Assembly (NCBI GenBank): GCA_005954745.1
Contig: CP040678.1
Span: forward strand, 1,798,001-1,862,000
Direction of reading: 5' to 3'
Source: Halostella pelagica
GTDB taxonomy: Archaea; Halobacteriota; Halobacteria; Halobacteriales; Natronoarchaeaceae
Length of the DNA: 64,000 bases
Made by a program: the position numbers and the translations under genes. The notes under the pieces were generated by a model. It was not told the origin of the DNA. It saw nothing but the letters and a program-made list of their open reading frames with translations, and made no database searches. Below are positions 1 to 883 of this stretch, in pieces (position 1 is the first letter of the stretch; each line of letters begins with the position of its first letter).

Positions 1-339
1 GATGCCGGTCACCAGGTTCGTCGCGCCGGGACCGGACGTCGCCAGGCAGACGCCCGGGTCGCCGGAGACGATGCCGAACGCGTCAGCGGCGTGGGCCGCG
101 CCCTGCTCGTGGGCCATCGTGACGTGGTTCAGGTCGGAGTAGTACAGGGCGTCGTAGACGGGCATGATCGCGCCCCCTTGGACGCCGAAGAGGTGTTCGA
201 CGCCCGCGCTTTCGAGGGTCGCGACGACCGACCCCGCGCCGGTCGATACGGCCTGTTTCGCTGCCGCTTCAGCGTCCTCGGCGTCGCTCGCTTGCGCCTC
301 CGCCTTCGTCTGAGTGGTCGGTGGAACTTGCTCGGTCAT
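1..339 (-). CDS. ilvB: Acetolactate synthase large subunit, N-terminal part (cut by window edge)
   Basis: This is the thiamine-diphosphate enzyme that joins two pyruvates, or pyruvate and 2-oxobutyrate, at the first common step of Val/Leu/Ile synthesis. The visible 113 codons give an acidic haloarchaeal extension of about 35 residues, then the conserved ThDP-binding start: VEHLFGVQGGAIMPVYDAL, the catalytic Glu in AHEQGAAHAADAFG, and ATSGPGATNLVTGI. The ATG at 339 has a strong Shine-Dalgarno (GGAGG, plus-strand complement at 345-353). That fits a transcript with a real 5' leader, unlike the many leaderless genes here. It lies downstream of leuA on the same strand but is separated by 540 bp containing its own promoter and a mini-ORF. 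Identity is secure; the C-terminal two-thirds are outside the window. Confidence 0.96.
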   Translation of the reverse strand, partial: MTEQVPPTTQTKAEAQASDAEDAEAAAKQAVSTGAGSVVATLESAGVEHLFGVQGGAIMPVYDALYYSDLNHVTMAHEQGAAHAADAFGIVSGDPGVCLATSGPGATNLVTGI

Positions 340-519
340 CTGGTCCCTCCTCCGAACGGTGTCGGTCGGTACGATCCGGACTCCGCGGTTGCTGGTTGGC
401 GGTTTGCGAGGGATGTGGTCGTCGGGCGATACTGTGTGACTGCTGTAGGTGTACTGGACATGGTTGGGGCAGGTGCTGGGTCGAAGGTCGATACGAACGC
501 CGGTCGAGAATGGAGTAGT

Positions 520-541
520 GTAGGGGCTAGTGTGCCCCTAC
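520..541 (-). promoter_or_regulatory. Hairpin overlapping the end of the ilvB leader ORF (candidate attenuator)
   Basis: A perfect 8-bp stem (GTAGGGGC / GCCCCTAC) with a 6-nt loop spans the last codons and stop of the leader ORF. The 3' arm can alternatively pair over 6 bp (AGCCCC with GGGGCT) with leader codons 15-17 (plus-strand 572-577), so two exclusive structures are possible. There is no obvious U-tract after the stem, so a bacterial-type intrinsic terminator is not evident. Confidence 0.5.
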
Positions 542-622
542 AATAATCTCGCCGAGAAGAGCTACCAGGACAGCCCCGCCGCTCCGCGACTGCACGGGAG
601 CGGAAGTCAGTGACTGTCTCAT
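527..622 (-). CDS. Putative branched-chain amino acid leader peptide of ilvB (31 aa)
   Basis: This is a 31-codon mini-ORF beginning about 29 bp downstream of a TATA box, so its transcript would be nearly leaderless and start at this ATG. Residues 17-28 read AVLVALLGEIIV: eight of the eleven residues from 18 to 28 are Val, Leu or Ile, the end products of the pathway encoded downstream. The stop codon (TAG, 527-529) lies at the edge of the loop of a perfect 8-bp hairpin, and the last codons form its 5' arm. This resembles bacterial ilv attenuator leaders. Function is inferred from composition and position only; I know of no described archaeal example. Alternative: a chance ORF or an unrelated hydrophobic microprotein. 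Confidence 0.55.
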   Translation of the reverse strand: MRQSLTSAPVQSRSGGAVLVALLGEIIVGAH

Positions 623-646
623 TGATAGTGAGGTAGTGAGTTCCGG

Positions 647-656
647 CAGTATAACT
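647..656 (-). promoter_or_regulatory. TATA box of the ilvB leader transcript
   Basis: On the minus strand the sequence AGTTATACTG is centred about 29 bp upstream of the mini-ORF ATG at 622, the normal archaeal TATA-to-start-site distance. It places the ilvB transcript start near 625 and gives a leader of about 285 nt before the ilvB ATG. Confidence 0.6.
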
Positions 657-883
657 CTTGTGCGAGTCGCAATGATTGCTCACATCGGGTGAACAGTAAC
701 ACACTTCGCGCGAGCGACGAGTTCCCCGCGGTACGTGGTGAGTCCGGCGGTGTGAGTGGTGGCTCCCTCGGTTCGAACAGGTGACCCCGAAGGGGTGATC
801 GGATGCGCCCGAGTCGCGGACTGTCCGCTGGCCGATATCGTCTACCTGCCGCTGGCGGACGGGGGCGAACCGGGCGGGCATCA

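Follow-up and report, generated by a model that had tools for sequence, protein, structure and literature searches.

A conserved leader ORF and hairpin upstream of ilvB in Halobacteria: a candidate ribosome-sensing control of branched-chain amino-acid supply

Bacteria provide the textbook case of attenuation in which the ribosome acts as the sensor. In the enterobacterial ilv and leu attenuators, stalling at leader codons sets the folding of the RNA, and a mutually exclusive antiterminator and a U-run terminator are required. The region upstream of ilvB in the haloarchaeon Halostella pelagica raises the question whether an archaeon may sense its supply of branched-chain amino acids (BCAA) in a comparable way. 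We studied this region in a window of 64,000 nucleotides (GCA_005954745.1, contig CP040678.1, positions 1,798,001 to 1,862,000) and compared it with the corresponding loci of other Halobacteria. The reading that we favour, and hold to be probable, is a ribosome-sensing leader for BCAA supply, with termination as its most likely output, coupling to ilvB through a second small ORF, and a similar copy before valS.

The interval between leuA and ilvB

On the minus strand, a TATA box, two small ORFs, a hairpin and a Shine-Dalgarno sequence lie between leuA and a gene which we take, from its sequence, to be ilvB (Table 1). The anatomy in the original prediction holds: a 31-codon ORF (uORF1) follows a TATA box by about 29 bp, 8 of its 11 residues from 18 to 28 are Val, Leu or Ile, and ilvB begins some 190 nt after its stop (187 nt by our count) behind a strong Shine-Dalgarno sequence. 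The hairpin is perfect over 8 bp, and the TAG stop of uORF1 (529-527) takes up part of its loop and the first base of its 3′ arm. The element consists of a near-leaderless mini-ORF that ends in Ile-Val-Gly-Ala/Val, with the stop in the hairpin loop. A second small ORF, uORF2, which overlaps the ilvB start, was absent from that prediction.

Table 1. Features of the leuA-ilvB region of Halostella pelagica, in window coordinates
Feature	Position	Strand	Remarks	Basis
Palindrome GCAATCATTGC	669..679	-	5′ of the leader TATA box; may be an operator of a DNA-binding regulator	sequence
TATA box TTATA, leader promoter (predicted)	650..654	-	about 30 nt 5′ of the uORF1 ATG	sequence
uORF1, 31-codon leader peptide MRQSLTSAPVQSRSGGAVLVALLGEIIVGAH	527..622	-		sequence, ORF list, relatives
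Putative sensor codons ATT ATT GTA	539..547	-	Ile-Ile-Val	codon usage and leader comparison
Hairpin GTAGGGGC-ACACTA-GCCCCTAC	520..541	-	perfect 8-bp stem	sequence, folding, relatives
G-poor C/U tract	502..521	-	immediately 3′ of the hairpin	C/G ratio by position bin
uORF2, 41 codons	336..461	-	TGA overlaps the ilvB ATG (ATGA)	ORF list, relatives
Shine-Dalgarno sequence GGAGGAGGG of ilvB	345..353	-		sequence
ilvB, 5′ end	1..339	-	acetolactate synthase large subunit; truncated by the window edge	sequence
leuA leader ORF MPERNTQSMDSSSGTSRGDRVLPGHVRFH	2123-2034	-	0 frame; overlaps leuA, which extends to 884; CTTC at 2060-2057

The palindrome GCAATCATTGC lies outside the core element and is a possible transcription-factor site. 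A looser form of it occurs in none of 18 valS loci, and the strict form GCAA-N2..4-TTGC in 15 of 102 ilvB loci, where shuffles would give 0.16.

Conservation and codon content of the leader

An unselected set of 78 haloarchaeal ilvB loci, in which some genomes occur twice, was fetched by the IlvB N-terminus alone, and 77 were assessable after L038, with too little upstream sequence, was left out. GTAGGGG with CCCC shortly after it was found in 76 of the 77. The remaining locus (L073) carries the variant ATT ATT GGG GTT CAC GCC TAG AACCCC, in which a GGGGUU/AACCCC stem follows a peptide ending in AVVAIVAIIGVHA. A larger set of 102 ilvB and 18 valS leaders was chosen by GTAGGGG[CT]...CCCC with an in-frame ATG; because the motif was used for selection, the invariance of GTA-GGG within this set is by construction, and the unselected figure is the one that counts.

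A covariance model built from 69 sequences matches 380 of 391 Halobacteria genomes (E ≤0.5), the place before ilvB being checked in the fetched loci. Nine of the 11 misses and four weak matches were followed up. One missed genome (G345) has the exact motif with an Arg codon before Val; three (G010, G220, G182) keep the Ile and Val codons with the stem rebuilt as GGGCC/GGCCC; and the leader of G123 (locus L215), whose stem is unrelated, may be of the leuA type. GTAGGGG was not found before ilvB in G021, G217, G382 and G285, where a putative leuA coding sequence, judged by eye, extends up to ilvB. An IlvB-protein search gave no ilvB match in G186 and G342. All four weakly matching genomes (G001, G017, G030, G173) contain GTAGGGG.

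Outside the order, 3 of 163 genomes in a sample of the phylum match at E ≤0.05 (best 0.0068), which is the chance level, and the model gave no match in plasmid records with ilvB. GTAGGGG is absent from the 700 nt upstream of ileS matches (0 of 10 loci) and of archaeal-type leuS (0 of 3 loci, the leuS model having matched only 3 of 10 genomes). Fifteen weak extra matches of the model were also fetched; six lie before valS, and no amino-acid gene was recognised by eye at the other nine.

Selection by the motif alone gave 106 ilvB loci, and in 103 of these an ATG opens the frame of the motif without an intervening stop. Frame 2 is open in this way in 8, and the 0 for frame 1 means little, since the motif itself contains a TAG in that frame. 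The conservation of the mini-ORF in haloarchaea, which had been proposed as a check, is borne out. TATA-like matches were found in 88 of 102 ilvB loci, and 85 start 31-33 nt before the leader ATG (where there were several matches, the one nearest to 31 nt was taken). The codon immediately before GTA (-1) is Ile in 100 of 102 ilvB leaders (ATT 79, ATC 21; Arg in L070 and Val in L071). Val instead of Ile is found at this codon in L209 and L212. At least one Ile stands among the last six codons of 101 of the 102 leaders. In L049 (Haloferax massiliensis) the leader peptide has the C-terminus RSLIIVGA.

In the 32 long ORFs of the window, ATT makes up 4.5% of Ile and GTA 5.7% of Val codons. Codons -5 to -1 that encode Ile, Leu or Val belong to the rare set in 156 of 289 cases in ilvB leaders and in 24 of 29 in valS leaders, against roughly 16% expected, a figure derived by hand from the codon usage of the window; Leu codons are only mildly enriched in the leaders. 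Differences in the N-terminal part of uORF1 are not concentrated at third positions (765, 699 and 628 at positions 1, 2 and 3); this part therefore gives no support for selection on the peptide.

The covariance model finds a second copy of the element in many genomes, which, where fetched and clear, lies before valS. The gene was recognised by eye from the ValS-like sequence IDTPPPTVSG.LHMGH, and the loci are L145, L162-L172, L176, L177, L179, L182, L203 and L206. The codon before GTA is never Ile in these 18 leaders (Arg 7, Phe 7, Val 4), codon -2 is Val in 14, and Ile is missing from the last six codons in all of them; the leader of L172 reads MHSGSVVAAVVVGAS. Ten unselected valS loci comprise six with the element, two with a different short Val leader (by eye) and two in which none was seen. 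These counts support the view that the leader codons are tuned to the downstream gene, Ile and Val before ilvB and Val only before valS. The outer partners of GTA in the valS stem are mostly missing (A.U 2/18, U.A 3/18); pairing alone therefore leaves the retention of GTA unexplained there, in loci that were chosen by the motif. A second type of valS, in L199 and L200, follows the leaders MSVASSVVRR and MSAIRSVVR, which have Val-Val and are without the GGGG hairpin.

Such constancy could also arise at the nucleotide level, if a regulator that binds RNA or DNA recognised GUAGGGGC...GCCCC and the reading frame were incidental. The sequence is palindromic, and the wobble positions of GTAGGGG hardly vary across the unselected ilvB loci. 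This explanation is nevertheless quite unlikely, since Ile precedes Val in ilvB leaders and never in valS leaders, ATT and ATC vary synonymously, the motif frame is open almost throughout, four loci (L073, L214, L210, L213) lose the motif and keep Ile/Val codons and a stem, and the distance between GGGG and CCCC is variable.

TnaC is an arrest peptide that stalls at its stop codon and senses a metabolite. A similar arrest, with a C-terminal I-V-G-A stalling the ribosome at the stop, would fit the conserved pattern of residues close to the stop codon, yet we regard it as very improbable: the stop is anywhere from the third to the eighth codon after Val (in loci read by eye), the residue before Val becomes R, F or V in valS leaders, and the rest of the peptide bears no sign of selection. 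The constancy of Gly-Ala/Val follows from the sequence of the stem. Taken on the sequence comparisons, the evidence supports the ribosome as the putative sensor of Ile- and Val-tRNA charging.

Hairpin, spacer and probable output

The stop codon lies within the loop in 97 of 102 ilvB and 14 of 18 valS elements, and otherwise after the 3′ arm; because of this position the 3′ arm is mostly non-coding, yet it is conserved. Stems are 5-9 bp long in the main set, and for 93 of the 102 ilvB loci chosen by the motif, a stem as strong as the real one arose in no more than 5 of 100 mononucleotide shuffles. The predicted pairing probability of the hairpin exceeds 0.5 in 85% of 68 loci and is 0.5 or lower in 15%. 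GGGG and CCCC are 5-9 nt apart in ilvB elements, a variation more readily accommodated by an RNA loop than by a DNA dyad. In three loci in which CCCC is followed by GA (L010, L024, L053), the hairpin seems by eye to carry GTA as a bulge and to be lengthened by an outer stem, GGTATC/GATACC, which is imperfect in L024.

A co-varying hairpin in relatives had been named as possible support. The hairpin is kept, and in diverged lineages stems are rebuilt by other bases as GGGCC/GGCCC (L214, L210, L213) and GGGGUU/AACCCC (L073). The four GGGG/CCCC core pairs have zero double changes among the 69 aligned sequences. Covariation at pair 8 is no higher than in shuffles, and at pair 9 it is weak (33 of 2000 shuffles reached the same level). 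Because the core pairs never change on both sides, support from covariation comes from a few diverged lineages. L215, with the leader MPHIEGTSVVPADRVLPRAA and a GAGCCG/CGGCTC stem that has the stop in its loop, was dropped from this evidence; it resembles a leuA leader and may be non-homologous.

Downstream of the stem, the interval from +20 to +40 relative to GTA is rich in C and poor in G, with C/G ratios of 6.7 in ilvB (n = 102) and 4.3 in valS (n = 18) loci, against 0.7-1.7 in the remaining 20-nt bins.

The attenuator was originally envisaged as sensitive to ribosome position, and several of its parts stand, namely a conserved leader of BCAA codons, a hairpin that overlaps it, a near-leaderless start and a promoter-proximal place. 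The classical two-structure form is not supported. The suggested pairing between leader codons 15-17 and the 3′ arm can be drawn in the window (leader GGGGC), and was rejected as a general antiterminator because an upstream GGGG within 90 nt occurs in 13 of 74 loci. A U-run terminator was likewise not found: T-runs of at least 5 occur in 0 of 74 loci within 120 nt downstream, the longest being 1-4. When the 5′ arm was blocked in folding of 68 loci, C's of the 3′ arm stayed unpaired in 62; they paired within the ilvB start region in 16 loci and at other places in 18, where a locus may count more than once. Sequestration of the Shine-Dalgarno sequence was also rejected, as blocking the 5′ arm moves its predicted accessibility from 0.463 to 0.449; a change above 0.1 was obtained in 9 of 68 loci (3 up, 6 down).

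What follows is the scheme that we infer for the start of transcription, for translation and stalling in the leader, and for the direction and output of the control. Transcription would begin just before the leaderless uORF1, the last codons of which, including the rare ATT and GTA, enter the 5′ arm of a GC-rich hairpin. If charged Ile- and Val-tRNA were ample, the ribosome would complete uORF1 and depart, the hairpin would form, and hairpin and untranslated C/U tract would reduce ilvB expression, most likely via premature transcription termination that is either hairpin- or FttA-dependent. If charged tRNA were short, the ribosome would stall at the Ile/Val codons and mask the 5′ arm, and transcription would continue. 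Timing would matter, because a terminating ribosome would cover the hairpin as well. uORF2 would deliver ribosomes to ilvB through termination-reinitiation, and the valS copy would act in the same mode with Val as its only signal. That ilvB and valS would rise in shortage is expected from pathway logic.

Because the alternative pairing is unconserved and no U-run terminator was found, the output step is one that we infer only. Termination is our best guess, since in H. volcanii 503 termination sites have hairpins upstream of them, the one hairpin tested there terminated 59% of transcripts in vivo (PMC7237163), and archaeal polarity has been attributed to FttA (PMC12548453). FttA is described as preferring U-rich RNA (PMC11616081), and the C-rich tract found here counts against FttA-dependent termination.

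The same leader and the same sensing ribosome could instead act on translation or mRNA stability, by setting access to uORF2 and hence to ilvB. An ORF ending on the NTGA of ilvB is found in 59 of 70 distinct loci, and 68 of 76 spacer ATGs are in the frame that ends there, ilvB-frame ATGs having been excluded through the choice of the ilvB start; four of the 70 loci have a spacer ORF in the other frame. The overlap is seen by eye in some valS loci as well (e.g. L163/L201), translational coupling by such overlaps and by termination-reinitiation has been reported in H. volcanii (PMC12548453), and the missing U-run terminator would also fit. Set against this are the lack of conserved Shine-Dalgarno sequestration, the highly variable length of the spacer, the eight of 70 loci that keep the hairpin without any spacer ATG, and five of nine loci with spacers below 110 nt that keep it without an ORF open to the start. 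We consider an output of this kind unlikely, although less so than the nucleotide-level element, and retain premature termination as the preferred reading.

The uORF2 peptides of the window and its relatives appear by eye to have many Arg, Thr and Pro residues and a Tyr-Arg pattern that recurs (QYRP, RRYR). A similar string, CAGTATCGACC, is seen by eye before valS in the genome of the window, without an ATG.

Known systems and a possible frameshift in leuA

Several features of leader-peptide attenuators are present in the haloarchaeal element: a short ORF rich in codons for the regulated amino acids lies 5′ of ilvB, codon identity tracks the downstream gene (Ile-Val for ilvB, Val without Ile for valS), and a conserved hairpin extends over the stop and the sensor codon, where a ribosome is predicted to be able to cover it. 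The antiterminator and the U-run of the enterobacterial ilv and leu attenuators were not found, and because these two features fail the element is not filed as a classical attenuator. Their failure weakens class membership and leaves the claim of the ribosome as sensor standing.

In single-hairpin leaders such as those of pyrBI and ampC, which respond to other signals (UTP, growth rate), the ribosome blocks a terminator, with no antiterminator involved. The haloarchaeal element resembles them in that the position of the ribosome would block one hairpin; their signals and their U-run terminators are their own. T-box riboswitches control aminoacyl-tRNA synthetase and ilv genes, bind tRNA directly and respond to its charging. 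Gene classes are shared with these, whereas the haloarchaeal element has a conserved ORF and no T-box match: no Rfam family scored over its gathering threshold in the window, and between 300 and 720 there was only a weak match to a cyanobacterial sRNA (E 2.2). The known ilvB RNA motifs gave no Rfam match here either, and published motifs may be missing from that release.

Actinobacterial ilvB leaders with terminators, described in 2005, contain short ORFs with runs of Ile, Val and Leu codons, and ileS T-boxes are mentioned in the same report (PMC1262725). As in the haloarchaeal element, an ORF of BCAA codons overlaps a hairpin before ilvB; according to the passages on these leaders, the actinobacterial hairpins are followed by poly-U, which is missing here, and the two differ in domain, leaderless start, stop in the loop, valS copy and uORF2 (PMC1262725). 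Codon changes in the ilvB leader of S. coelicolor are reported there as without effect (PMC1262725). The ilvB-II, ilvB-OMG and ilvB RNA motifs, published in 2023 from bacterial lineages, likewise have uORFs rich in BCAA codons before ilvB, for which attenuation was proposed; the stem, the motif and the association with valS have no counterpart in the passages on these motifs (PMC10272879).

The statement that no described archaeal case was known agrees with our searches of Rfam and of the literature: no archaeal leader-peptide attenuator appeared in titles, abstracts and passages among the matches listed, and an earlier notice is possible. Transcription attenuation was speculated for two Pyrococcus ncRNAs, in a passage that mentions no leader peptide (PMC3124441). 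The element looks like a built-in amino-acid sensor of the bacterial kind, of which we found no archaeal description. If this is true, a conserved archaeal counterpart would mean that Archaea regulate genes through the coupling of transcription to translation. The group concerned is genetically tractable, and the element would offer a direct assay for quality control of this coupling by FttA, a hypothesis described as awaiting test (PMC11616081). A wider proposal has, in our view, about an even chance of being right: codon-specific ribosome-sensing attenuation would be native to Archaea, working with a single hairpin and factor-dependent termination and without a U-run or antiterminator, and the ilvB leader of nearly all Halobacteria, the Val-tuned valS leader and a +1 frameshift at a rare Leu codon, needed for LeuA synthesis, would form one decoding-based BCAA circuit.

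The leuA part of this proposal starts from the reading frame of LeuA, for which a usable start codon is often missing in relatives. Another frame (...RVLPGH...), which overlaps leuA, is opened by an ATG behind a TATA box, and the window is alike by eye. From 59 distinct loci, 15 that were too short and L085, with GTTCTCC instead of GTTCTTC, were set aside, leaving 43. In all 43, LeuA is in the +1 frame relative to GTT CTT, with a 0-frame ATG within 120 nt. In thirty of them, the stretch that begins 15 nt upstream of the leader ATG offers LeuA no in-frame ATG, GTG or TTG; the other 13 have at least one LeuA-frame start candidate, which in 3 includes an ATG. A programmed +1 frameshift at CUU-C, on a Leu codon, would be the simplest reading of these frames. 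No report of a leuA frameshift was found among the literature matches listed. Such a frameshift would point to a decoding theme that leuA shares with the ilvB leader. In-frame LeuA start candidates occur farther upstream, before the TATA box, in some loci, and the window has a GTG at 2206.
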